From Cytophagaceae bacterium ABcell3 (lineage in GTDB: Bacteria > Bacteroidota > Bacteroidia > Cytophagales > Cytophagaceae), in contig CP133159.1 in the NCBI GenBank assembly GCA_030913385.1, forward strand, positions 3,680,584 to 3,744,583: 64,000 nt of DNA. Direction: 5' to 3'. Positions 39,731 to 52,695 of this stretch are shown here, piece after piece (within the stretch, counting starts at the first letter, position 1; every line of letters begins with the position of its first letter). The translations under genes and the position numbers were made by a program. The notes under the pieces are model-generated. The model searched no databases, was not told the origin of the DNA, and saw only the letters and a list, made by a program, of their open reading frames with translations.

Positions 39731-40813
39731 CTACACCATCCACAACCTCCACACACCCGAAATGAACAATAAAATCAGTGCTGCCGGTGTAAGCACTTTC
39801 CAGCACAAGTACATCAATTGGTCTACACGAAGCCTCGGGTAAGTCCAACGGGACATCATTTGCAAAAATATTATTCCCAAACTTTTAATTATTAACCAAA
39901 ATGCTCCCCAAAGATTGCCTGCCAAAGTACCTGGCGCCCCACTGGTCCATTCTGCAAGTTTAAGAGGACCAATATTAGGAAGAACGGTATTCCACCCTCC
40001 CAAAAACAACACTACGCCAAGCATGGCTACCAACAACATTAAAGCATATTCAGCCAAAAACAACAAGGCAAATCTAAACCCTGAATACTCTGTATGGTAT
40101 CCTGACACCAGTTCGGATTCTGCTTCGGGCAAATCAAATGGAGCACGGTTGCATTCGGCCAAGGAGGCTATAAAGAAAATCACATAAACGGGAATCAAAA
40201 TTGGCGCCCGAAAGATGTTCCAAGAAAGAAAACCTCCTACATTGCTTACGTCAATACCAAGGGCGCTAATACCAAACAGCCAAGTAGTTTCCTCACTCCA
40301 AATACCTTGCAGAACACTTAGTTCCTGCAGGTTCATCGTTTGGCTGATCATGACAGCCGAAAGGATGCTTAGACCTAGTGGAATTTCATAAGATATTACT
40401 TGAGCAATTGCTCTTAGAGACCCTAATACTGCATACTTACTACCGGATCCCCAACCGGCCATAATCAGTCCAATAATATCTAAAGATACTATGGCCAACA
40501 AGTAAAAAACACCCGTTTCTATTCCAGAACCTAGTATATCAGTAGTAAGGGGGATAACAGCAAACCCTGCAAAGACCGAAGCAAAAATAAGCATTGGAGC
40601 CATGCGAAACATCCTGCTTTCTGCTCCTGAAGGACGAACGTCCTCTTTTAAAAAAAGTTTCAGGATATCAGCTACGGTTTGCAACAACCCTCTATAACCT
40701 ACTTCCATAGGCCCATAACGGTCTTGGATGTACGCCGACACCTTGCGTTCTGCATAAACAGCAGCCAATGCAAACAATAAAATAAGTGGCAAGAAAACCA
40801 GAAAAGCGAGCAT
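39731..40813 (-). CDS. nuoH: NADH-quinone oxidoreductase subunit H
   Basis: The 360-residue product is the quinone-chamber membrane subunit. Motifs include AERKVSAYIQDRYGP, TVADILKLFLKED, VIPLTTD-like loop region and ECNRAPFDLPEAESELVSGYHTEYSG near residue 220, which carries acidic residues at the quinone site. Eight hydrophobic helices are present. It is the first gene of this nuo operon, with 82 bases to nuoI. The genes for nuoA-G are not upstream; a divergent BON-domain gene starts 156 bases away. Confidence 0.95.
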   Translation of the reverse strand: MLAFLVFLPLILLFALAAVYAERKVSAYIQDRYGPMEVGYRGLLQTVADILKLFLKEDVRPSGAESRMFRMAPMLIFASVFAGFAVIPLTTDILGSGIETGVFYLLAIVSLDIIGLIMAGWGSGSKYAVLGSLRAIAQVISYEIPLGLSILSAVMISQTMNLQELSVLQGIWSEETTWLFGISALGIDVSNVGGFLSWNIFRAPILIPVYVIFFIASLAECNRAPFDLPEAESELVSGYHTEYSGFRFALLFLAEYALMLLVAMLGVVLFLGGWNTVLPNIGPLKLAEWTSGAPGTLAGNLWGAFWLIIKSLGIIFLQMMSRWTYPRLRVDQLMYLCWKVLTPAALILLFISGVWRLWMV

Positions 40814-40969
40814 TATTCTAAGTTTATGCCAAAGTTAAATTTTATTAAAGAAATATACTAAGGAAGATGGCAATACTTGTATAAATGTACTTATGAAGTT
40901 ACTCATGCGCAATATCAAACAATACGATATTAAATATGTTGGCTATCAAAAGACCATCAACATTGACAT

Positions 40970-41641
40970 ATGGAAACACTGCAGAAAGAATTGATAGATG
41001 ATGTTAAAGACCACATTGCTTGGGACAATAGGATCAACTCAGACAATATACAAGTAGATATGGCCAATGACCATACGGTCATCTTGAAAGGATCCGCTCC
41101 AAGTCTTTATGACAAAGTAACCGCTGAATTTGATGCTTATTCTGTTCCAGGGGTTAATGAAATAATCAATCAAATAGAAATAGCGCCATTAGAGGTAGAG
41201 TCTTTGTCGGACAATGAAATAAAAACCGCACTACAAACTATCTTCCAATGGGATGCTAGGTTAACCCCGGCTGATATACATATAGAAGTAAATGACGGCG
41301 TGGTAAAGTTAACAGGATCTGTGGGCGCTTATTGGGAAAAAAACATTGCGGTTAACCATACCCATAATATGGCAGGGGTAAAAGGTATTGTTGACCATAT
41401 GACAGTAGTACCGACCCTGGATGTTTTAGATGAAGATATAGCCAACGACATCAGAAGGGCCTTGCAGCGAAAAAGGATTATAGAAAATGACAACATCACA
41501 GTAGAAACAGTTAACAATATAGTTACTTTAAGAGGGCAAGTTCCTACGGTCATGGCCAAACAAAAGGCAGAAGAAGTGGCCGCACATACCAAAGGGGTAA
41601 AAGATGTTAGCAATAAGCTAGTGATCAAACCTAATTTTTAG
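40970..41641 (+). CDS. Protein with three BON domains
   Basis: The 223-residue protein consists of three consecutive BON domains (about residues 5-73, 80-148 and 152-222). Each has the alpha-beta pattern with a conserved Gly-containing VxLxG motif (VILKGSAP, VKLTGSVG, VTLRGQVP), and each is followed by GVxxV/I (PGVNEI, AGVKGI, KGVKDV). BON domains bind phospholipids or act in osmotic-shock and membrane-protection proteins such as OsmY. There is no signal peptide, so it would be cytosolic unless exported otherwise. It is transcribed divergently from nuoH. Confidence 0.9.
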   Translation: METLQKELIDDVKDHIAWDNRINSDNIQVDMANDHTVILKGSAPSLYDKVTAEFDAYSVPGVNEIINQIEIAPLEVESLSDNEIKTALQTIFQWDARLTPADIHIEVNDGVVKLTGSVGAYWEKNIAVNHTHNMAGVKGIVDHMTVVPTLDVLDEDIANDIRRALQRKRIIENDNITVETVNNIVTLRGQVPTVMAKQKAEEVAAHTKGVKDVSNKLVIKPNF

Positions 41642-41681: not shown

Positions 41682-41723
41682 AAGGCAATGCATCCGGCTA
41701 AATTTTCGGGTGCATTCCTTTTT
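41682..41723 (+). terminator. Intrinsic terminator after the BON gene
   Basis: AAGGCAATGCATCCG (41682-41696) pairs with CGGGTGCATTCCTT (41707-41720) with one bulge and a wobble, followed by T residues. It lies 41 bases after the stop codon. Confidence 0.7.
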
Positions 41724-42014: not shown

Positions 42015-42497
42015 TTGGACTCCTTTAAGTACACAAAATATTACCATATTCTTCGCTGCATAATAGGCCTTGCCTTTTTTGTTATTACCCCAAATACGCC
42101 TTTATTTTCCAGCTCGAATACTCCTTCTTTTGATGGGGACCTGACCCAATATTCCAATGATGGTCATATCAGGATAAGCTGGGAGGCTCAGAAAGCAGAA
42201 AACAGTGAATTTCAATTTGAACTTCAACGTTCAGAAAAAGAAGATTTTTCTGATGCAACCATTATATACAAAGGGCCTGAAACCGCTACATTTACCTCAG
42301 GGCTTTCTAATGGCACTTACTTTTTTAGAATACGAACCAACAATAATAACAATACCTCTCAATGGTCAGAACCTATGCAACTGATTGTAGAACACCACAG
42401 TCTAAACAAAGCCTTATGGCTTGCTGCTTTGGGTGCCACCGTCGTTCTGGCTACTGTAGCAGTAATAGTTACAGGTAATAGAAAACAAGAACATTGA
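42015..42497 (+). CDS. Single-pass membrane protein with an FnIII-like domain
   Basis: The start is TTG at 42015; no ATG exists before the conserved part and an in-frame stop lies 12 bases upstream. The 160-residue product has an N-terminal hydrophobic signal or anchor (about residues 13-31), then an FnIII-like beta sandwich at about 40-127 (GHIRISWEAQ, FELQRSE, GTYFFRIRTN, SQWSEPMQLIV), then a helix at about 134-153 and a short basic tail. It would be mainly periplasmic and anchored at the C-terminal helix. It opens the seven-gene cluster and its stop overlaps the start of the symporter gene (TTGA). Function is unknown. Confidence 0.7.
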   Translation: MDSFKYTKYYHILRCIIGLAFFVITPNTPLFSSSNTPSFDGDLTQYSNDGHIRISWEAQKAENSEFQFELQRSEKEDFSDATIIYKGPETATFTSGLSNGTYFFRIRTNNNNNTSQWSEPMQLIVEHHSLNKALWLAALGATVVLATVAVIVTGNRKQEH

Positions 42498-43951
42498 ACA
42501 ATCCTACTGCAATAATATCGTCTCAAACAGGATGGATCCTGCTTGCTATTCTAAGTGTCATTTGGGTAGCCTTGGGAGTGTATTGGGGAAAGAAAGCCAA
42601 AAACATGGATGGCTTTATGCTTGCAGGCAGGAATGTCGGACTTGCTTTCGGTGCGGCCACAGCCATGGCTACCTGGGTAACGTCCAATACAACCATGCTT
42701 GCGCCACAATTTGCCCTTGAGCTTGGGGTTTGGGGTATGGTCGCCTATTGTACAGCCTCTGCCGGACTTTTTCTTTTCGCTCCTTTGGCTCGGCGCATAA
42801 GGAAGTTAATGCCTAATGGATACACCAGTGGTGATTTTATACGCCTAAGGTATGGCAAACGCACTTGGATCCTGTTTTTGACCATTTCAATATTTTATGG
42901 TTTCACCTGGCTAGTTAGCATGGGCATGGCCGGAGGCATTTTAATGAATGCACTAGCAGGCATCCCCTACCGCACCGGGATGTCCATCATCCTATTGGTA
43001 TGCGTCCTGTACACCTTATTCGGAGGACTTTATGCTGTAATAGGTACAGACTTCATTCAAAGCTTGATCATTTTAGCAGGTATCGTTGTAGTAGGTGCTG
43101 CAGTACTGGTCAATGTAGACTTCAATACAGTATACTCTAATTTGGAGACAGAACGACCTGAATTGATAAACATGCTCCTTCCGGCTGCAATAATGTCCGT
43201 TTTCAACAACCTGCTCTTCGGCATTGGTGAAATATTCCACAGCAACGTATGGTGGAGCCGGGCTTTTGCCATGCGAAAAGGCATTGGTCAAAAAGCATAT
43301 AACCTTGCTGGTTTTTTCTGGCTACCTGTCCCAATTGCAGCAGGCTTTATAGCCCTTACCAGCGGCGCCTTGGGCATTAACATTACTAGCCCAGACATGA
43401 CCGGCCCCTTGGTTTCAGCTCACATACTGGGAAGCACAGGAGCGATTTTGGTTTTTGCGGTATTCTTCTGCTCGCTTGCATCAAGTATAGACAGTTTATT
43501 AGCCGCAACATCGGATCTGATAACAGAAGACATCTATAAAAAAATGATTAACCCTAATGCTGGCGAAAAGCGCCTAAAAAGGGTTTCTGCGTGTATCATT
43601 ACCGGTCTTGGCGTCCTTGCATGGCTGGTTTGCCTTCCACGTATAGGTACATTGGCAACGGTACTCTTCTTTGCCGGGCCTATGGTCGGAAGTACAATTT
43701 GGCCGATTTTGACAGGCCTTTATTGGAAAAAAGCTAACTGGCAAGGTGCCTTCTGGGGAATGCTGACCGGAACTATCTCTGGTTTAATTGTGTATTTTGA
43801 AATTGGCTGGTATGCCGCCTCTTTAACTGGAGCACTTGTCTCCATGGTTATCACAATTATATTTTCTTTACTAAAACCTAGTAATTTTCAATGGAAACTT
43901 CTAAAAGAACAAGCACATGTTGTGCACAAAGAAGCTCATGTAAAAAACTAA
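42494..43951 (+). CDS. Sodium:solute symporter family transporter
   Basis: The 485-residue protein has about 13 membrane helices and the LeuT-fold SSS family signature: GLAFGAATAMATWVTSNT in the first helices and SLASSIDSLLAATSDLITEDIY near residue 330. It starts with TTG at 42494, overlapping the previous stop codon, so translation is coupled. The substrate is not recognisable from sequence. Because it sits in an operon with carbamoyl-transfer and amide-hydrolysing enzymes, it probably brings in their substrate (an amino acid, ureido or amide compound). A tiny membrane peptide gene follows after 18 bases. Confidence 0.9.
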   Translation: MNNPTAIISSQTGWILLAILSVIWVALGVYWGKKAKNMDGFMLAGRNVGLAFGAATAMATWVTSNTTMLAPQFALELGVWGMVAYCTASAGLFLFAPLARRIRKLMPNGYTSGDFIRLRYGKRTWILFLTISIFYGFTWLVSMGMAGGILMNALAGIPYRTGMSIILLVCVLYTLFGGLYAVIGTDFIQSLIILAGIVVVGAAVLVNVDFNTVYSNLETERPELINMLLPAAIMSVFNNLLFGIGEIFHSNVWWSRAFAMRKGIGQKAYNLAGFFWLPVPIAAGFIALTSGALGINITSPDMTGPLVSAHILGSTGAILVFAVFFCSLASSIDSLLAATSDLITEDIYKKMINPNAGEKRLKRVSACIITGLGVLAWLVCLPRIGTLATVLFFAGPMVGSTIWPILTGLYWKKANWQGAFWGMLTGTISGLIVYFEIGWYAASLTGALVSMVITIIFSLLKPSNFQWKLLKEQAHVVHKEAHVKN

Positions 43952-43969
43952 TATTGACCAATAATATAA

Positions 43970-44095
43970 ATGTTGAAATTTTCAGAATCCTTTCTTGAAA
44001 TACTTATACAAGGTTCCTTAGGATTGATTACGATCACCGTAGTAACCTTGATATTTTTAGTAGTAAAGGATATTAAAAACAAAGAATTATGGTAA
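43970..44095 (+). CDS. 41-residue single-helix membrane peptide
   Basis: A 41-codon frame starts with ATG 18 bases after the symporter stop and ends with TAA at 44093-44095, overlapping the ATG of the next gene at 44089. The peptide reads as a short polar head, a hydrophobic helix (about residues 13-32, LIQGSLGLITITVVTLIFLV) and a Lys-rich tail. This is the layout of small accessory subunits of transporters, and the placing directly behind the SSS gene fits. No family can be named. The overlap with the downstream ATG and the good hydrophobic pattern support it being real. Confidence 0.6.
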   Translation: MLKFSESFLEILIQGSLGLITITVVTLIFLVVKDIKNKELW

Positions 44096-45201
44096 TAGGA
44101 AAATTTGAAAAATCAGACAGGATTAATCTGGAAGACAGCCCGATTGAAAACTGTGACGGATTTTACCCGGATCCAGAAAAATTAATCAACAAAAAACCAA
44201 TCAACCTAGACATTCTTAAAAAACTGACAGGACAATCTGTTCTTTCTGTTCATCAGTTTGACAAGGAGCTTGTTCTAGAAATATGCAAATTTGCAGCACT
44301 TCTTGAAACTACTGAAATAGCCAGCAGCCACCCATTAGATGGAAAGATAGTGATCACTGCTTTTTTTGAACCAAGCACCAGGACCAGGCTTTCTTTTGAA
44401 AGTGCGGTACTAAGGCTTGACGGAAAAATCATCAGTATCCACGAAGGCAAGACCACCGGAGCGGCCAAAGGTGAATCCCTTAGCGATATTGGTGAAATGT
44501 TCAATGCCTACGGCGACATTGTTGTCATGCGCCATACAGAAACTGAAGCCGTAAACGAAATCCTCCAAAACCTAAGACTGCCTTTGATTAACGCAGGAAA
44601 CGGTAGTGGTGAACACCCAACCCAAGCATTGGCCGACTGGTTTGCCATTTTAAAATGGAAGCCTCAATTAGCTGAGAAACTAAAAGAGGAAGACAAAATC
44701 CACTTAGGGATATTAGGAACGCCAGGTTCTATGAGGGCAGTAAACAGCTTCTTAAGAATGTCCCTACTGTTCAATGATGGCATTAAAAAGATTTCTATCA
44801 TTTCTGAAATGGCAGACCCGCTAGGAGAAGAACTGCAAGAGCAGCTAGAAAAGTCTGGCATAGAATACTACATCACCAATGATATCAATGATGTTGTGTC
44901 TGACCTCGATGTGATTTACATGAATTCTATTGCGTTCCTCGGCGATAGCTATAAATCTCTTGACAGCCGCTTTAAGCTAAATCAAGAAACAAAACTTAAA
45001 GAAAATGCTGTGGTGCTACACCCGTTGGCCCGTTTGGATGAACTTGATCCTAACTTGGACAGCACTACACACAACCTTTATTTTACGCAGGCACATGGTG
45101 CGGTATTTATCAGGCAAGCGTTGTTCATTTCTATCTTGAACCGCTTTGACAAGCTACCGAAAGACCAAATACCTGTATGTAATTCAAAAAATTCTAAATA
45201 A
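44089..45201 (+). CDS. Aspartate-carbamoyltransferase-like enzyme (altered amino-acid-binding loop)
   Basis: The 370-residue protein belongs to the carbamoyltransferase family. The carbamoyl-phosphate site is intact: FEPSTRTRLSF near residue 93, the lysine in GKTTGAAKGESLSD, MRHTE, and GEHPTQALADW. HPLARLDELD near the end matches the ATCase HPLPRVDEI motif. The second-substrate loop, which in E. coli ATCase is TRVQKER with Arg229 and Gln231 holding aspartate, here reads NSIAFLGDSY, so the amine acceptor may not be aspartate. A roughly 50-residue N-terminal extension is also atypical. It starts inside the preceding micro-gene and is 12 bases from the AsnB-like gene. Confidence 0.88.
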   Translation: MVIGKFEKSDRINLEDSPIENCDGFYPDPEKLINKKPINLDILKKLTGQSVLSVHQFDKELVLEICKFAALLETTEIASSHPLDGKIVITAFFEPSTRTRLSFESAVLRLDGKIISIHEGKTTGAAKGESLSDIGEMFNAYGDIVVMRHTETEAVNEILQNLRLPLINAGNGSGEHPTQALADWFAILKWKPQLAEKLKEEDKIHLGILGTPGSMRAVNSFLRMSLLFNDGIKKISIISEMADPLGEELQEQLEKSGIEYYITNDINDVVSDLDVIYMNSIAFLGDSYKSLDSRFKLNQETKLKENAVVLHPLARLDELDPNLDSTTHNLYFTQAHGAVFIRQALFISILNRFDKLPKDQIPVCNSKNSK

Positions 45202-45213
45202 AAATAAAAAGAT

Positions 45214-47181
45214 ATGTGCGGAATAGCCGGATACTGGAAGGCCACTTCTCTTGCAGACAATGCAAAGGATACTCTTAAAAACATGACTGAAACCCTCTAT
45301 CACAGAGGACCCGATGGATATGGATTTCATATAGATAAGGAAGAAGGGCTTGCCATGGGGCATGCCAGACTTTCTATTATTGATATGGAAACGGGAAGAC
45401 AGCCACTTTACGGTCAAAGCAAAAACCAGGTTTTGACTGTAAACGGAGAGTTTTACGACTATAAAAGGATAAGAACAAACTTACGCCTAGAAGGTTTTAG
45501 TTTCACAACCAAATCAGATAGTGAAATAGCCCTTCCCCTATACAAAAAACATGGGTTGGACTTTATAAACCAACTTCGTGGAGAATTTGCCGTTGCGCTT
45601 TATGATAAAGAAAGGCAACAGCTTGTACTGGCAAGAGACAGGTTTGGGATCAAGCCTCTTTTCTACCATATTTCAGACAAAGGCGTATATTATGGCTCTG
45701 AAGTAAAGTCTTTATTTGCTAACCCTGAAGTTCCTGGAGCATTTGATGCTAAAGCTTTGATACACCAACTGATGCACACGATGGTACCTGGAACCAGTGC
45801 CTACAAAGGTATCCATGCCATAAAGCCAGGGCACATGATTATCATCAGCAAAAAAGGAGATAGCTTTGACGTAAAAGAAAGAAAATATTGGGATATGGAC
45901 TTCCCAGAAGACAGCCAAAGAGAAGACAAAGGCGAGGCGTTTTACGTCAAACAGGTGCAGGAGAAGCTAATGGAAGCCGTTTCTTTTAGGCTAGAAGCAG
46001 ACGTGCCGGTAGGATGCTACCTTTCTGGTGGTATAGATAGCTGCTCTATGTTAGGACTGGCATCTTCTATTCAACAGTCTCCTGTTAAAGCTTTCACCAT
46101 TAGCTTTGACAACAAGGACTATGACGAGGCTGCTATTGCCAAAGAGATGGCAGATAGAACCAAAGCTGACCAAGAACAGATCAATTTGACAGCCAGTGAG
46201 CTTTATGGCGACAACTATGTCAAAACCCTATGGCACGCAGAAAGAACTTTCTACAACACCTTAGGTGTGGCGAAATACTGTATGAGTAAGCGTGTAAATG
46301 AGTGTGGATATAGGGTTGTTGTAACGGGAGAAGGTTCGGATGAGCTTTTTGGAGGATATCCTTTCTTCAAAAAGGACATGTTCCTGCATGTTTACCCTGA
46401 ACACGAAGTAGAGGCGCTGCGCAAACAAATGGAAGCCAGCAACAGCTTGTTCAAAGGTGCTATTTTGGCAGAAAACCCAAGACGCCACCAAGCAATGGAA
46501 GACATTGTAGGTTTTACCCCTTCATGGATTCAGCCGTGGATGCATACTTTAGAACTAGCCTCTCCACTCCTTTCGGATGATGTACTGCACGAAACTGAAG
46601 GGTACGATCCTATTGCAGCTATTGCCGAAACTTTTGATAGCAAGCAATTGAAAGGACGCCATGTGCTGGACAAAGTACAATACACTTGGATAAAAACCAT
46701 GCTGGAAGGTCAAATCCTGAACTGGGGTGGCGATAGAGTAGATATGGCAAACTCCATGGAATCTCGCCCTGCTTTCCTTGACCACCACGTAGCAGAAGCT
46801 GCACGAAACATCCCTCCACATTACAGGGTGAAAGGCAACATTGAAAAATACGTTCTGAGAGAAGCAATGAAAAACATTCTTCCTGAGGTATTGTATAAAA
46901 GAGAGAAATTTGCTTTTATGGCCCCTCCGGGACATACCGAAAAGAAAAAGCAAAATGCACTGCAAAACCTAGTTGACCAATTCTTGAATGAGGACATTGT
47001 AAGGGAAGCTGGTTTGTTGGATGCACAAAGAGTAACAAAGTTCTTAAAAGACTATAATGAAGACAAAGATCCTGTATCTTTGATTCGTAAAGATGCGCTT
47101 CTAAACCATTTGATCGGTGTGCATGTCTTGCACAGCCACTTTATAGCAGGAAGAAAAGAATCTTTGGCTTCATTAGCATAA
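45214..47181 (+). CDS. AsnB-type glutamine-hydrolysing amidotransferase
   Basis: The 655-residue protein has an N-terminal class II glutaminase domain starting MCGIAGYW, with Cys2 as nucleophile and HRGPDG. The ATP-pyrophosphatase synthetase domain has the PP-loop SGGIDS near residue 274 and GEGSDELFGGYP. Glutamine amide nitrogen is transferred to an AMP-activated carboxylate. The length is at the long end of the AsnB family. In this operon the acceptor may be an N-carbamoyl or other modified amino acid rather than free aspartate, which is inference. Gaps to neighbours are 12 and 13 bases. Confidence 0.9.
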   Translation: MCGIAGYWKATSLADNAKDTLKNMTETLYHRGPDGYGFHIDKEEGLAMGHARLSIIDMETGRQPLYGQSKNQVLTVNGEFYDYKRIRTNLRLEGFSFTTKSDSEIALPLYKKHGLDFINQLRGEFAVALYDKERQQLVLARDRFGIKPLFYHISDKGVYYGSEVKSLFANPEVPGAFDAKALIHQLMHTMVPGTSAYKGIHAIKPGHMIIISKKGDSFDVKERKYWDMDFPEDSQREDKGEAFYVKQVQEKLMEAVSFRLEADVPVGCYLSGGIDSCSMLGLASSIQQSPVKAFTISFDNKDYDEAAIAKEMADRTKADQEQINLTASELYGDNYVKTLWHAERTFYNTLGVAKYCMSKRVNECGYRVVVTGEGSDELFGGYPFFKKDMFLHVYPEHEVEALRKQMEASNSLFKGAILAENPRRHQAMEDIVGFTPSWIQPWMHTLELASPLLSDDVLHETEGYDPIAAIAETFDSKQLKGRHVLDKVQYTWIKTMLEGQILNWGGDRVDMANSMESRPAFLDHHVAEAARNIPPHYRVKGNIEKYVLREAMKNILPEVLYKREKFAFMAPPGHTEKKKQNALQNLVDQFLNEDIVREAGLLDAQRVTKFLKDYNEDKDPVSLIRKDALLNHLIGVHVLHSHFIAGRKESLASLA

Positions 47182-47194
47182 AAATAGATAAACT

Positions 47195-48436
47195 ATGCGG
47201 GAAAAATTGAGGATAAATTCTAAAAGATTATGGGACAATCTCTATGAGCTTTCAGAAATTGGGAAACAAAAAGATGGGGGTATTTACCGCATGGCTTTTT
47301 CACCTGCTGATATGGAAGCAAGAGATTGGCTATGTCAGAAAATAAAAAAAGCAGGCTTGGAGAACTTTCAGGATGGGGCGTTAAATGTTTATGGCAAACT
47401 CCCTGTCCAAGACAGTTCCATCCCTTCTGTTATTACAGGGTCACATATAGACACAGTACCAAACGCAGGAGCTCTTGATGGGGCTCTTGGCGTTATTGTC
47501 GCTTTGGAATGCTTGCAGGTCATCAAGGAAAATAATGTTGCCCATAAATACCCACTCGAACTGGTCGCTTTTAGTGATGAGGAAGGCCGCTTTGGCCCCA
47601 TGTTCGGCTCTAAAAGCTTTATTGGCGACATGACTCCTGGAAATCTTTTAGAAAGTACAGACCTAAAAAACAACAAACTAATTGATGTACTGACTAATTT
47701 AGGCTATGACCCAAACAAGGCATTAGAGGCTGCCAGAGACCCTAAAACTATTAAATACTACCTTGAACTCCATATTGAGCAAGGACCAGTTCTCGATTCG
47801 ACTAATAAAGAAGTTGGCGTAGTATCAGACATAACAGGATTGTTTAAGTGGCAAGTAACGCTTTCAGGATCAGCAAACCATGCGGGCACCACACCTATGG
47901 ACATGCGTAATGATGCTTTTATGGGCTTGGCAGACTTTGCTCATGAAATTCCTAGGATAATAGAAGAAAACGGGAGCGAACATTCAAGAATGACTATTGG
48001 TATGGTGCAACTTTATCCAGGATCTGCCAATACCATACCTGAAAAGGTAAGGTTTTCCATGGATGTAAGAGATGTATCTGAAGAGGTAATGCATGAGCTA
48101 AAAAATGCTTCCAGAAAAGTACTATCAGCCATAGCACGCCGAAAAAAGCTAATGTTCGACTTTGAAGAAATCAACTGGATTTCTCCGGTCAGTTGCGAGC
48201 CTGTATTGAAAGCGTGCATTAAAGAACAAGCCGAAAACCTTGGACTGAACTATCACATAATGCCTAGTGGAGCAGCTCACGATGCTCAAATGGTTGCCAA
48301 AATAGCACCGGCAGCCATGATTTTTGTACCTAGTAAAGCAGGTATCAGCCACTCCATGCACGAATGGACCGACTGGCGGGATATTGAAGCTGGAGCAAAC
48401 TTAATGCTGCAAACATTGTTAAAACTTACAGAATAA
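47195..48436 (+). CDS. M20-type N-carbamoyl-amino-acid hydrolase (hydantoinase/carbamoylase family)
   Basis: The 413-residue enzyme has the two-metal M20 site: GSHIDTVPNAGALDG (His and bridging Asp), SDEEGRF (Glu pair), ELHIEQGPVLD and the C-terminal SHSMHEW. The lid domain has SGSANHAGTTPMDMRNDA with the conserved His. Family members hydrolyse the carbamoyl group of N-carbamoyl amino acids or allantoate, releasing ammonia and CO2. It follows the AsnB-like gene by 13 bases and precedes the isochorismatase-type gene by 11 bases. It is cytosolic; no signal peptide. Confidence 0.9.
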   Translation: MREKLRINSKRLWDNLYELSEIGKQKDGGIYRMAFSPADMEARDWLCQKIKKAGLENFQDGALNVYGKLPVQDSSIPSVITGSHIDTVPNAGALDGALGVIVALECLQVIKENNVAHKYPLELVAFSDEEGRFGPMFGSKSFIGDMTPGNLLESTDLKNNKLIDVLTNLGYDPNKALEAARDPKTIKYYLELHIEQGPVLDSTNKEVGVVSDITGLFKWQVTLSGSANHAGTTPMDMRNDAFMGLADFAHEIPRIIEENGSEHSRMTIGMVQLYPGSANTIPEKVRFSMDVRDVSEEVMHELKNASRKVLSAIARRKKLMFDFEEINWISPVSCEPVLKACIKEQAENLGLNYHIMPSGAAHDAQMVAKIAPAAMIFVPSKAGISHSMHEWTDWRDIEAGANLMLQTLLKLTE

Positions 48437-48447
48437 TTTTTTAGAAC

Positions 48448-49191
48448 ATGAAAGATATTGACAAATACGAAAAAGGGAAACACCTTGATCCACTGAGAGA
48501 GTACTACCATGACATGGTAGCAGACAGCAAAGAGCGAAAGCAAAACCTGATCGGAAAAAATGTAGCCCTTTTAGTGATTGACATGCAATATTTAGACGCA
48601 GCAAAAGGCTATGGTGTCTTTAAAGACATTACTTCTTCTGGTATTCCTTGGGAACAACAAGAATACTATTTCAATACACTAAACGACTATGTAATTCCTA
48701 ATATCCAGAAGCTCCAAAAGCTTTTCAGGGATAATGAATGTGAGGTTATACATACCCGTATCCAAAGCCTAACCAAAGACGGAAGAGATAGAAGCAATGG
48801 CCACAAAAGGCTGGGCTTGCTTGCGGCGCCAGGGTCTAAAGAAGCTGAGTTCTTGCCTGAAATAGCCCCTATTGAAGATGAGATAGTAATTAACAAAACG
48901 GCAAGCGGTGTTTTTTCTTCCACTAACTTACATTATGTGTTAACCAATATGGGTATTACAGAGCTTGTAGTTTGTGGCGTTTATACCAATGAATGTGTGG
49001 AAACTACCGTTCGTGATGCCTGCGACCTTGGTTATTTAGTTAGTCTAGTTGATGATGCTTGCACTACTGTTACACCTGAACTGCACAATGCTTCCTTAAC
49101 CACTTTGCGCAACCGTTATGCAGAGATTACAAGCACTGAAGAAACTATCAAAAGATTTAATATTGTTAATATTTTAACTTCAAATACTTAA
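48448..49191 (+). CDS. Isochorismatase-family cysteine hydrolase
   Basis: The 247-residue protein has the catalytic triad of the cysteine hydrolase family: Asp in ALLVIDMQ, Lys in VINKTASGVF and Cys in VCGVYTNECVETTVRDA. The family includes N-carbamoylsarcosine amidase, biuret hydrolase and ureidoacrylate amidohydrolase, all acting on amides or ureido groups. It has about 40 extra N-terminal residues (KHLDPLREYYHDMVADSKERK) compared with short members. It is the last gene of the seven-gene operon, and with the M20 carbamoylase gives two hydrolases for carbamoyl or amide bonds in one unit. Confidence 0.88.
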   Translation: MKDIDKYEKGKHLDPLREYYHDMVADSKERKQNLIGKNVALLVIDMQYLDAAKGYGVFKDITSSGIPWEQQEYYFNTLNDYVIPNIQKLQKLFRDNECEVIHTRIQSLTKDGRDRSNGHKRLGLLAAPGSKEAEFLPEIAPIEDEIVINKTASGVFSSTNLHYVLTNMGITELVVCGVYTNECVETTVRDACDLGYLVSLVDDACTTVTPELHNASLTTLRNRYAEITSTEETIKRFNIVNILTSNT

Positions 49192-49309: not shown

Positions 49310-50215
49310 ATGCTTTTAAAAAGAGGAATTCCTTTTAAATACATCTTTCGTAAAATACGAAAAGAAGTAATTTTTTTCTTAACCTACGGACTATTAATCT
49401 ATACAGTAAAACCATACATTACCATATATTTTGACATAGACTTACCCTTGACTATTCCGGTCATTTTAGGTACTGCAATCTCCCTTCTGCTGGGTTTTAG
49501 AACAGACCACGCTTATGACCGTTGGTGGGAAGCTAGAAAAATATGGGGGGCTATTGTAAACGACTCTAGGAACCTAATCCGTCAACTGATAACTTTTACT
49601 AATGAAAATGATCCTGAAAGCAGGGCGCTATTAAGAAGTATAGCCATAAGGCAAATCGCTTGGTGTTACTCATTGGGCAATGCACTTAGGGGCACTGACC
49701 AGAAAGACGTTTTGCAAAAGTACCTTTCGGATCACGAAGCTCAATCAGCCAACCTTCAAGACAATACCCCAAATGCCCTGTTGCAGTTTCACGCTTATGA
49801 CCTGAAAGAACTATTGAACAAAGGACACATTAACCCTTTTCAGCAAGTACAAATTGAAGCTACAATTTCTAGGCTTTGCGATAGCATGGGTATGTGCGAA
49901 AGGATTAAAAATACCATTTTCCCAGAAACCTATAGCATGTTTATACACTTCTTTATCTATTTATTTATTATGCTCCTACCAATAGGGCTTGTTGATCATT
50001 ATGGTCTTTGGACAGTTCCTATTGTAGTGCTAATAGCTGCTTCATTTTTCCTTATTGAGAAGACAGCCATTGTACTTCAAGACCCTTTCGAGAACTTACC
50101 TACAGACACGAATATGACAACCATTGCAAGGAATATTGAAATAAATATTAGGCAGATGACTCATGATCCTGAGGTACCGCCAAAAATTAAACCGGAGAAG
50201 TTTTTTTCCATGTAA
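49310..50215 (+). CDS. Bestrophin-family (UPF0187) chloride-channel-like protein
   Basis: The 301-residue protein matches bacterial bestrophins. Family hallmarks are LGTAISLLLGFRTDHAYDRWWEARKIWGAIVNDSRNL (residues about 60-95), MGMCERIKNTIFPETYSMFIHFFIYLF near residue 195, and the C-terminal QDPFENLPTDTNMT. About four membrane segments are expected. Prokaryotic bestrophins form pentameric ion channels in the inner membrane. Single gene, facing the convergent murI gene with a 10-base gap and no clear terminator between them. Confidence 0.92.
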   Translation: MLLKRGIPFKYIFRKIRKEVIFFLTYGLLIYTVKPYITIYFDIDLPLTIPVILGTAISLLLGFRTDHAYDRWWEARKIWGAIVNDSRNLIRQLITFTNENDPESRALLRSIAIRQIAWCYSLGNALRGTDQKDVLQKYLSDHEAQSANLQDNTPNALLQFHAYDLKELLNKGHINPFQQVQIEATISRLCDSMGMCERIKNTIFPETYSMFIHFFIYLFIMLLPIGLVDHYGLWTVPIVVLIAASFFLIEKTAIVLQDPFENLPTDTNMTTIARNIEINIRQMTHDPEVPPKIKPEKFFSM

Positions 50216-50225
50216 AAGGCGGTTG

Positions 50226-51035
50226 TTACTCCCATAAGGGGTAATGTTCCAGATTCAGGTCCTCCATAAAGAACATACGTGCAGACTCTGCAAATGAGTG
50301 CGTATAGTCTGACACATAAAATTTACTTTCTGGAGGCAATCCTGAATTGTTAAGCAAATCGTTATCCTTGAGGAACGAAAGAAGCGTCTCTGCCACAATA
50401 TCAGACGAATCCAGTACTTCTACTTTCTTTTGATAATAACGCTCGATCTGCGTTTTAATTAAGGGGTAATGGGTACATCCCAGAATCAAAGCTTCTATGC
50501 CTTCTAAACGCCGGTCTTGAAGATAGGTTTGGATAATTTCTTCACTGATGCGGTTATTGCAAAAGCCCTCTTCTATCATTGGGGCCAACAGAGGGGTAGC
50601 AAGTGCTTTGAAGTTAATGTCATTGCCAAGTTTATCAATTTTTTTCTGATATGCGTTACTTCCTACTGTTTTTTTAGTACCTATCAGTCCTACTGCTTTA
50701 CCTGCATAATGCTTACTACAATAGTCTATTACAGGGTCTATGACATTAATTACCTCAGCCTTGCTTCCGACATACTCTTTGACCAAACGGTAGGCAGCAG
50801 AAGAGGCGGAGTTACACGCTATTAAAATAACTTTACAATTATGCCTTAGTAAAATATCACAAATTTTAACTGCATAAGCCTGAATTGCGGCTGTTGATTT
50901 ATCGCCATACGGATGGTGGGCTGTATCGCCAAAATATACGAAACTTTCGCCAGGCAATATTTTGCGAACGGCATGTGCCACAGTAAGCCCACCTATACCG
51001 CTATCAAAAAAACCAATGGCTCGTGTATTGTTCAT
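50226..51035 (-). CDS. murI: Glutamate racemase
   Basis: The 269-residue enzyme makes D-glutamate for peptidoglycan. The two catalytic cysteines are Cys74 in IACNSASS and Cys187 in LGCTHYPL. The N-terminal FFDSGIGGLTV and DTAHHPYGDK motifs are typical. Length fits the family. It is a single gene between the bestrophin and response-regulator genes. Confidence 0.96.
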   Translation of the reverse strand: MNNTRAIGFFDSGIGGLTVAHAVRKILPGESFVYFGDTAHHPYGDKSTAAIQAYAVKICDILLRHNCKVILIACNSASSAAYRLVKEYVGSKAEVINVIDPVIDYCSKHYAGKAVGLIGTKKTVGSNAYQKKIDKLGNDINFKALATPLLAPMIEEGFCNNRISEEIIQTYLQDRRLEGIEALILGCTHYPLIKTQIERYYQKKVEVLDSSDIVAETLLSFLKDNDLLNNSGLPPESKFYVSDYTHSFAESARMFFMEDLNLEHYPLWE

Positions 51036-51147
51036 ATCTACTGAACTTTTAGTAACAATGAAAGTTATGTATTTTCTTGATTAAATATTAATTTTCTGAT
51101 AAAAATTATATAATATTGGTATAGAAATAAAAAATTTTAAAGATAGG

Positions 51148-51561
51148 ATGTCGAATAAAATTCTCAAGAATGTTCTGTTGGTTGATGATGATAGTATCAA
51201 TAACTATATCAATGAACGCTTATTGAAAAAAATGAACATATGCGAAAACATTAAAGTACTATTGAATGGAGAAGAGGCTATAAAACATATAGAACAAGAG
51301 ATTGCCCAAGATAACTCCTATACCCCTGACTTAATCCTTCTGGACATAAACATGCCTGTTATGGATGGTTTTGAGTTTATGGAAGCATTTAAAAAATTGG
51401 ATCTTGAAAAGAAGGAAAAAGTGGTAATAATAATGCTCACGACCTCTACCAACCCAGGAGATATGGACCGAGTTAAACACTCTATTGCCTCTGATTTTAT
51501 CAATAAACCGCTAACTGAAGATAAAATATCAGGTATTTTGAATAAATACCTTCAAGTATAA
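51148..51561 (+). CDS. Single-domain response regulator
   Basis: The 137-residue protein is a CheY-like receiver with no output domain. Acidic pocket residues are Asp13-15 in LLVDDDS, the phosphoacceptor is Asp66 in LLDINMP, the switch Thr is in IMLTTST and the conserved lysine is Lys120 in INKPLTE. Such stand-alone receivers in Bacteroidota often act in phosphorelays with hybrid kinases, but no kinase gene is adjacent. A bidirectional terminator follows. Confidence 0.92.
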   Translation: MSNKILKNVLLVDDDSINNYINERLLKKMNICENIKVLLNGEEAIKHIEQEIAQDNSYTPDLILLDINMPVMDGFEFMEAFKKLDLEKKEKVVIIMLTTSTNPGDMDRVKHSIASDFINKPLTEDKISGILNKYLQV

Positions 51562-51595
51562 AGATTCTCCTAAAAATTAATTTGGGTTAAAAAAA

Positions 51596-51623
51596 AGAGA
51601 ACTGCTATATAAAGCAGTTCTCT
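51596..51623. terminator. Bidirectional intrinsic terminator
   Basis: AGAGAACTGCT and AGCAGTTCTCT form a perfect 11-bp stem with a 6-base loop and A-rich flanks on the left. It serves the plus-strand response regulator and the convergent OmpA-type gene. Confidence 0.85.
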
Positions 51624-51649
51624 TCCTAAAAAAACTTCTACTTTAGATT

Positions 51650-52618
51650 TTATTCGTAAATAATATTCATTTCTACCCTTCTATTTAACTTACGCCCCTC
51701 TGCTGTATCATTGGTAGCTTTGGGTTTAGATTCTCCAAAACCATCGGTAGATATACGGTGTTCTTTCACACCTTTTTGAGCAAGGTATCTCTTTACCGAC
51801 TTAGCCCTATTTTGAGAAAGGATTAAGTTTGCCTCATCATCACCCACATTGTCAGTATGCCCTTCTAAGTGCAATTTATAGTGAGGATTGTTGACCAACA
51901 CCTTGGCTAGCTCATCTAGGGAGCTGAAAGAAGATGCTACGATAATATCTTTCCCGGATTCAAAAAGAAGGTTTTCGAAGGCTTTCTTCAATGCTTCTTT
52001 TTCTTCAGGTTTAATCTCTGGGCATCCACGGTTTTCTGCTGTTCCAGGAGTATTTGGACACAGGTCATCATAATCACTTACCCCATCTCCATCGCTATCA
52101 ATAAAAGGTGGCGGGCAACCATTATAGCGCGCTATCCCAGGTTCATCTGGACACTCATCTTCAGAGTCAGGAATACCATCGCCATCTGTATCTGGACACC
52201 CATGGAACTTCTTCAAACCCGCTACATCCGGGCAACGGTCTTTATTATCAGGAATGCCATCACCATCACGGTCTCCCCATGGACATCCTTTATTTTCTTT
52301 TGGTCCTGGCTCATCTATACAATCATCTTCATAGTCATAGACACCGTCAAAGTCCGTATCTACAGGACATCCAAAAGGCGTAACAGGAACCCCTTTGGGT
52401 GAATTGGGGCATTTATCCCTTTTGTCGGGAACACCGTCGCCATCGCTGTCCTTGTCTGTCCATCTGATGGTATATGCTTCCTTTTTAGCCTTTTTATACT
52501 TTCGTTGTTTTTTCGCAAGTTTTTTAGTTTGCTTTCGGTTCTGGCCCAAAACATCGTTGGCAGATACAACTAAAAGAAAAATAAATAAAAAAGAAATACA
52601 TCTGTAGTAGTGCAGCAT
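51650..52618 (-). CDS. OmpA-family outer-membrane protein with thrombospondin type 3 repeats
   Basis: The ATG at 52618 was chosen because it starts directly at a signal peptide (MLHYYRCISFLFIFLLVVSA); an in-frame TTG at 52678 would add 20 residues with no such feature. The 322-residue product then has a basic linker, five calcium-binding-type repeats (DSDGDGVPD, DTDFDGVYD, DRDGDGIPD, DTDGDGIPD, DSDGDGVSD, each followed by DxC), and a C-terminal OmpA peptidoglycan-binding domain (LEGHTDNVGDDEANLILSQNRA, DGFGES). There is no N-terminal beta-barrel, so it is probably a periplasmic or outer-membrane-linked protein that holds peptidoglycan. Confidence 0.92.
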   Translation of the reverse strand: MLHYYRCISFLFIFLLVVSANDVLGQNRKQTKKLAKKQRKYKKAKKEAYTIRWTDKDSDGDGVPDKRDKCPNSPKGVPVTPFGCPVDTDFDGVYDYEDDCIDEPGPKENKGCPWGDRDGDGIPDNKDRCPDVAGLKKFHGCPDTDGDGIPDSEDECPDEPGIARYNGCPPPFIDSDGDGVSDYDDLCPNTPGTAENRGCPEIKPEEKEALKKAFENLLFESGKDIIVASSFSSLDELAKVLVNNPHYKLHLEGHTDNVGDDEANLILSQNRAKSVKRYLAQKGVKEHRISTDGFGESKPKATNDTAEGRKLNRRVEMNIIYE

Positions 52619-52695
52619 CAGCAATAAATTTGGTAATTGAAGAAATCTTATACCCTTACATTTAAGTGGGGCAAACAATGATTTCTTATACGCAA

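Follow-up and report, generated by a model that had tools for sequence, protein, structure and literature searches.

The genome of Cytophagaceae bacterium ABcell3 (5.1 Mb in a single contig, CP133159.1) contains an operon of seven genes that brings a carbamoyltransferase and an amidotransferase together with a sodium-coupled symporter and two hydrolases. It lies on the plus strand at positions 42015-49191 of the 64,000-nucleotide stretch analyzed here (positions 3,680,584 to 3,744,583 of the contig), called the window throughout. The reading proposed, to which a probability of about one half is assigned, is that the product of this operon is an N-carbamoyl amino acid amide, an uncharged molecule that the cell would synthesize, take in, and recycle, and that would most likely serve as a compatible solute. 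The carbamoyltransferase would take a free amino acid whose side chain is neutral and carbamoylate its alpha-amino group from carbamoyl phosphate; the amidotransferase, consuming ATP and glutamine, would then amidate the alpha-carboxyl. The symporter, with two small membrane proteins as accessories, would take up or recapture the solute with Na+; once the solute is superfluous, an isochorismatase-type hydrolase would take off the amide and an M20 hydrolase the carbamoyl group, so that the amino acid is set free. We infer this pathway, with every substrate, the order of the steps, the accessory roles, and the osmotic role, with moderate confidence, and the compound itself, with N-carbamoyl-glutamine amide as a candidate, is a bold but testable guess. 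If correct, the operon would hold genes that are candidates for making a doubly capped solute of the ureido-amide type, a little-known salt-protecting compound, and proteins best modelled as aspartate carbamoyltransferase, asparagine synthase, and allantoate amidohydrolase would join one testable pathway.

A gene set with a conserved five-gene core

The first gene encodes a FnIII-like small membrane protein (42015..42497, TTG start, 160 aa) and overlaps by 4 bases the gene of an SSS-family Na+/solute symporter (42494..43951, TTG start, 485 aa; PF00474). After a gap of 18 bases comes a peptide of 41 aa with a single transmembrane segment (43970..44095), the stop of which overlaps by 7 bases the start of the gene for a carbamoyltransferase resembling aspartate transcarbamylase (ATCase), that is, a pseudo-ATCase (44089..45201, 370 aa; motifs STRT, HPTQ, HPLA, and SIA). 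Gaps of 12, 13, and 11 bases then precede, respectively, the genes of an AsnB-like glutamine-dependent amidotransferase (45214..47181, 655 aa; Asn_synthase and GATase domains), an M20 N-carbamoyl-L-amino acid hydrolase of the HyuC/LCar type (47195..48436, 413 aa; TIGR01879 and NF006771 above cut-off, alignment to 3n5f), and an isochorismatase-type cysteine amidohydrolase (48448..49191, 247 aa; PF00857), proposed to be an alpha-amide hydrolase. The open reading frames and their spacings thus bear out the layout given by an earlier sequence-only reading: seven plus-strand genes, gaps of 18 bases or less, and two start/stop overlaps. Its family calls hold for five of the seven proteins; the FnIII assignment is weak, below cut-off, and the 41-residue peptide matches no family.

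The same reading regarded the seven genes as one dedicated set. The conserved core is of five genes, not seven: the FnIII-like gene, the symporter, the peptide, the ATCase-like gene, and the AsnB-like gene follow one another in this order at 24 loci including the window, in Bacteroidota and Verrucomicrobiota, to the limits of the contigs. Two contigs start within the symporter gene (L026, L027), the AsnB-like gene is truncated by the contig end in two others (L023, L030), and at L024 and L025 one gene for a protein of about 970 residues is inserted between the ATCase-like and AsnB-like genes. Since this gene order repeats at 23 loci besides the window, the linkage goes beyond chance; homologues scattered without linkage, which would have spoken against a dedicated set, did not occur. 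The pairwise identities of the core proteins also co-vary (Spearman 0.89 for the ATCase-like protein and the symporter, 0.82 for the ATCase-like and AsnB-like proteins, and 0.86 for the FnIII-like protein and the symporter). At six loci (L020, L024, L030, L032, L035, and L036), the FnIII-like gene is preceded, in the same orientation, by a gene for a MarR-family regulator.

The set is patchily distributed. In 395 genomes of the class, an orthologue of the ATCase-like protein was found in two, the window's own and G418 (77% identical); twelve of these genomes pass E 1e-40, ten of them with sequences of 33-35% identity, as distant as ordinary PyrB. Among 395 genomes of the phylum at E 1e-60, it occurs in the own genome only, as it does among 59 near genomes at E 1e-40 (1/59), and of 13 genomes of the family of G418, only G418 has it. 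A scan of named genomes started from the C-terminal halves of two aligned sequences and used two short peptide patterns, so that only close relatives could be detected. It yielded 20 loci, of which the titles place 19 in Bacteroidota and one in Verrucomicrobiota (one of the 20, L035, is the G418 contig). A 21-sequence profile run against 288 genomes from the phylum that includes L039 gave four matches, three of them new, and all four loci of this Verrucomicrobiota search carry all seven genes. In a tree of the ATCase-like protein, the four Verrucomicrobiota rows group with full support, and most deeper forks are open. In the plasmid collection, the 38 records matched by this protein all lie below 60% identity (38% or less among the matches listed), and viral contigs gave no match to it. 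The hosts include, by name, Chitinophaga japonensis, Sphingobacterium, and "Sphingobacterium stercoripullorum".

Such patchiness in the Bacteroidota samples (2/395 in the class and 1/395 in the phylum, own genome included) would also suit a different use of the proposed compound, doubly capped or carbamoylated and amidated in some other way, namely as a nitrogen store, a signal, or a specialised metabolite instead of an osmolyte. Recycling enzymes would suit a reserve, and some hosts come from soil or gut. However, no gene for a non-ribosomal peptide synthetase or polyketide synthase is found among the seven, and an Na+-coupled symporter, together with the related marine gene block discussed below (PMC4016543), fits an osmolyte better; this use appears rather doubtful.

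The carbamoyltransferase and the amidotransferase

The carbamoyltransferase matches OTCace_N and OTCace (E 4e-36 and 2e-13) and has the traits of its superfamily: the STRT and HPTQ motifs, most of the carbamoyl-phosphate residues, and the ATCase fold. This fold is seen in the predicted structure (mean predicted local distance difference test score, pLDDT, 76.7; loop residues 281-286 below 50), with template-modelling scores by target length of 0.74-0.87 to ATCases among the matches listed. The protein scores highest against ATCase models and folds and misses the cut-off of the PyrB equivalog TIGR00670 (191.1 vs 236.95 bits). The comparison with VioL, the enzyme of beta-ureidoalanine, made in the sequence-only reading, turned out to be a poor one, VioL being placed in the ornithine transcarbamylase branch (PMC4581275).

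In an alignment of 21 ATCase-like rows, numbered as in Escherichia coli PyrB, R229 is replaced by serine and Q231 by alanine (threonine in one) in 21/21 rows, and the 240s loop lacks its RxQ(xER) motif; the alignment is exclusive of three Verrucomicrobiota rows, and L057, read separately, has the motif NSIAFLGDS. By contrast, S52-R56, K84, R105, H134, Q137, and R167 are kept in all 21. HPLA is likewise present in every row, and SIA in 20 of them, with SIT in the remaining one. In ATCase, R229 and Q231 anchor the beta-carboxyl of aspartate, while R167 and K84 hold its alpha-carboxyl (PMC4581275, from which the definition of the RxQ motif is also taken). The loss of the first pair and retention of the second argue that the acceptor should have an alpha-carboxyl and no side-chain carboxylate, that is, it should be an alpha-amino acid of this kind, and the residues make the use of aspartate unlikely. 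The genome holds two further PF02729 genes, which rejects the ATCase-like enzyme as its only PyrB, a possibility that the sequence-only reading had coupled to the use of L-aspartate. Judged by their sequences and neighbours, these two are probably pyrB, beside pyrR, and a transcarbamylase among arginine-type genes. The genome's own PyrB-like protein reads VLRIQLER, with R and Q both present, although it is visibly shifted in this loop of the alignment. A pocket accepting a carboxamide, like that of ureidoglycine carbamoyltransferase (UGTCase), was considered for the ATCase-like enzyme and dropped, as the Rubrobacter xylanophilus residues given in PMC4581275 do not fit.

The amidotransferase has an Asn_synthase and a GATase domain (E 3e-84) and passes the cut-off of the asparagine synthase superfamily, TIGR01536 (433 vs 267.1 bits). 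Among the glutaminase and ATP-site residues checked, Cys1, SGGxDS, and E348/D351 are kept in the orthologues. The Thr-Thr-Ile-Arg segment of E. coli AsnB, which we take to bind aspartate, reads NTLG in the window and in 20/20 orthologues with letters there, a count that leaves out L037 and L038 (selection by MCGI) and L023 (cut). Four other AsnB-like genes are present in the same genome and none of them has NTLG (one has a gap at this place).

The best equivalogs of the two enzymes are aspartate carbamoyltransferase, below its cut-off, and asparagine synthase, above it, as would be expected from duplicate housekeeping genes, an extra PyrB and an asparagine synthetase, brought together in an operon by chance. 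Against this stand a separate PyrB-like gene with RxQ plus another PF02729 gene, the loss of R229 and Q231 throughout the alignment, and a linkage kept in two phyla, and such an origin is very improbable. The linkage, the separate PyrB-like gene, and the residues that make aspartate unlikely as acceptor also support a dedicated set, with a core of five genes.

Transport, hydrolases, and the probable direction of the proposed pathway

The symporter matches PF00474 (E 1e-35, 123.6 bits vs a cut-off of 22.8), misses the cut-off of the TIGR00813 superfamily (160 vs 184), and is found at 24/24 loci. Residues S340 and T341 of PutP, presumably its sodium site, align with Ser/Ser in 23/23 symporter rows (22% identity to PutP). 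The FnIII-like protein, with 21.9 bits for fn3 (cut-off 25) and a best match to the Ig-like Kre9_KNH (24.2 bits, cut-off 24.6), has hydrophobic segments at its N-terminal and C-terminal ends, as read from the sequence. Its gene is present at 22 of the 24 loci, the contigs of the other two (L026, L027) beginning too late to include it, and its homologue in G418 is 40% identical. It is probably an accessory part of the transporter, a role that fits the way in which its identity tracks that of the symporter. A like peptide is encoded between the symporter and ATCase-like genes at all 23 other loci, with the tail D(I/L/Y)(K/R)x(K/G)x(L/I/V)W, read in 16 distinct sequences; part of the conservation of its final Trp may follow from the overlapping ATGG start. 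Its identities correlate with those of the other core genes at Spearman 0.53-0.63.

The two hydrolases have chemistries that would undo the two proposed caps. The M20 protein scores 395 bits against TIGR01879 (cut-off 204), and its eight orthologues score 339-392. The best equivalog in 9/9 of these proteins is the N-carbamyl-L-glutamate amidohydrolase ErtE, below its cut-off of 520 bits (374 bits in the window, 358-389 in the eight orthologues); two subfamily models match them about as well as ErtE or better. The isochorismatase-type protein matches PF00857 (E 4e-38, 131.7 bits vs a cut-off of 27), and the segments IDxQ, NKTxSG, and NECVETT, which presumably hold its catalytic Asp, Lys, and Cys, are invariant in nine rows. 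The pair belongs to the cluster. It adjoins the core at 9/24 loci, downstream on the same strand in the window, L021, L022, L032, L057, and L058 and on the opposite strand in L031, L039, and L056. An isochorismatase-type orthologue (E <=1e-20) occurs in 5/20 genomes of the named loci, always beside the cluster, and at 1e-30 in 1/395 genomes of the class, the window's own.

Among NCBIfam subfamilies, the one that the M20 protein matches best, above cut-off, is named allantoate amidohydrolase. This would suit a ureide (allantoate) route with the ATCase-like enzyme as a UGTCase and the M20 enzyme as an allantoate amidohydrolase. The pseudo-ATCase Rxyl_2847 does have UGTCase activity (PMC4016543), and by the subgroup numbers printed in the same paper the motifs found here would be those of the Rubrobacter subgroup. 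Nevertheless, UGTCase has H(T/S)LP and S258 (PMC4581275) where the present protein has HPLA and SIA, and it sits with allantoinase and carbamate kinase, of which the former is not among the seven genes and the latter not found above cut-off. This route would also leave the AsnB-like enzyme without a role, and it is improbable.

The gene inserted at L024 (9566-12478) and L025 (9579-12476), two loci that lack the hydrolase pair, and present as a fragment at the end of L027 (3541-4182, minus), suggests that a carbamoylase has become attached to this cluster in two forms. The second half of its product of about 970 residues matches carbamoylase-type M20 models, at best with 127 and 131 bits, below their cut-offs. 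The N-terminal half of about 385 residues has Cys51, His155, and Asp176 (L025 numbering) common to both proteins; Pfam and PDB searches with it gave one chance-level Pfam match only, and its predicted structure (pLDDT 35) is unusable. The protein, for which no plasmid match was found, may be an amide hydrolase fused to a carbamoylase. Three plasmids, L059, L060, and L061 (Sinorhizobium, Klebsiella, and Shinella), encode proteins related to the isochorismatase-type enzyme (39-46% identical, three examined), and near them lie genes for an N-formylglutamate amidohydrolase, a protein of the glutamine synthetase family, a MurR/RpiR regulator, and an aminotransferase and, in one case, a short gene of the M20 family. 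The features listed around them, in an incomplete gene table, include no carbamoyltransferase; this is possibly another N-acyl amino acid amide route.

Regarding direction, the sequence-only reading had offered either uptake and conversion of a ureido compound or its synthesis and recycling. A symporter and two hydrolases in one operon would serve scavenging, in which an external ureido or amide compound is imported, converted, and hydrolysed for nitrogen and the ATCase-like enzyme runs backwards, by phosphorolysis, to carbamoyl phosphate; catabolic carbamoyltransferases are indeed known (PMC4581275). However, carbamate kinase (TIGR00746) is above cut-off in 0/24 cluster genomes, compared with 2/14 controls (weak matches below cut-off occur in 8/24 cluster genomes and likewise in other controls), which makes an ATP harvest from carbamoyl phosphate unlikely. 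Moreover, the AsnB-like enzyme, which spends ATP, belongs to the constant core, whereas 15/24 loci show no hydrolase pair next to them, and a breakdown route has no use for amidation. Scavenging is a possible but unlikely direction. Synthesis and recycling fit better because the energy-consuming pair, using ATP and carbamoyl phosphate, is constant, the hydrolases are optional, and no carbamate kinase is found above cut-off.

It is important to note that several observations weigh against synthesis of a solute of this kind. Not every host is marine, some coming from soil or gut. Among the 15 loci that lack an adjacent hydrolase pair, several contigs end within or soon after the AsnB-like gene, but in the 15 genomes lacking the pair that were searched, no isochorismatase-type orthologue turned up at any other place; the identities of the peptide correlate weakly with those of the M20 and isochorismatase-type proteins (0.05 and 0.13; 28 pairs). 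In the carbamoyltransferase, none of the residues determines which side chain the acceptor has, and S80 of E. coli PyrB is glycine in 21/21 rows, at a place adjoining a gap where this may be an alignment effect. For the amidotransferase, the cut-off of the AsnO model TIGR03104 is missed (299.3 vs 570.1 bits), and a literature search on the Thr-Thr-Ile-Arg segment and AsnB substrate residues found no paper. A MarR profile built from the proteins of the six loci mentioned above, and run over 23 loci and the complete window, has no match in the window; at the loci that have the MarR gene, it is co-directional, whereas the regulator PA3458 of the operon for N-acetylglutaminylglutamine amide (NAGGN) is divergent (PMC8070244). 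Finally, the carbamoyl compound of Ectothiorhodospira marismortui (E. mobilis) is called a minor solute there, and Raman work showed no signal possibly corresponding to it (PMC3857566).

A gap of 373 bases separates the 5' end of the operon from a BON-domain gene and contains a terminator-like hairpin (41687..41716, plus strand), a weak site given nine such sites in the region and a mean of 6.8 in shuffles. At the 3' end, 118 bases lie before a bestrophin-like gene. Between 41600 and 49500, promoter-like sites of the sigma-70 type are no more frequent than in shuffles, and no Bacteroidetes-type promoter pattern was found near the operon. The neighbouring regions (39731-41641 and 49310-52678) look ordinary, the BON-domain and bestrophin-like proteins being among their open reading frames. 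Further neighbours are NADH dehydrogenase subunit H-like (minus), glutamate racemase-like, response-regulator-like, and OmpA-like.

Relation to known systems

The UGTCase of Rubrobacter xylanophilus is, like the enzyme studied here, an ATCase-branch protein without the RxQ motif (PMC4016543). It differs in its HxLP motif (PMC4581275), in its context of carbamate kinase and allantoinase, and in its catabolic direction.

Closely similar to the set is a marine block that comprises a pseudo-ATCase, an Na+ symporter, a "putative asparaginase", and HyuC, described in Rhodopirellula baltica, Nitrosococcus oceani, Synechococcus WH 8102, and Kangiella koreensis (Barba et al. 2013, PMC4016543). The sequence-only reading knew of no described pathway with this set. 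A similar block had been noted in 2013, so the gene set is partly known already; the paper's passages on it propose no function ("seawater milieu?"), and the pathway is the new claim. If correct, it would give a function to a block left unassigned at that time. The description of the block differs in giving a "putative asparaginase" in the place of the AsnB-like enzyme, and it mentions no FnIII-like protein, peptide, or isochorismatase-type protein. In Table 1 of PMC4016543, row 1 has the motifs HPLA and AIA/AIS/SIA, with which the HPLA and SIA found here agree. The row numbers of that table seem mismatched with the subgroup numbers of the text and the Figure 5 legend: in the text the marine group bears the number 3 and, taken as printed, row 1 would correspond to the Rubrobacter group. 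Row 1 is probably the marine group because the Rubrobacter residues (T298 of H(T/S)LP and S258; PMC4581275) agree with row 2, and row 3 suits the group that has a single species. The row numbers would then be permuted. If row 1 is indeed the marine group, a related block would reach about five phyla, counted by the phyla of the named species.

The doubly capped compound is a molecule and not a gene set, and it carries the same double capping that the ATCase-like and AsnB-like enzymes would perform together. Sources differ on its occurrence, either in one organism only or also in other purple sulfur bacteria, and a search of the open-licence literature found no paper on its synthesis genes.

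A precedent is offered by NAGGN synthesis, in which the AsnB-like AsnO amidates an N-capped glutamine dipeptide and the operon is osmotic and MarR-repressed (PMC8070244). The asnO-ngg operon (PA3459-PA3461, with MarR PA3458) likewise couples an N-capping enzyme to AsnB-like amidation of the C-end, includes a hydrolase gene (called glutamyl aminopeptidase), and has a MarR gene nearby, as do six of the present loci; its product is made from glutamine. The two differ in that the NAGGN cap is an acetyl group, added by a GNAT enzyme that also joins the two glutamines, in that no symporter is found among the three genes described, and in that the AsnB-like protein here is not an AsnO equivalog. By analogy, the seven-gene set may be regarded as a natural counterpart of the NAGGN operon with a carbamoyl cap and, if so, carbamoyl transfer could act as an N-cap just as acetylation does in NAGGN.

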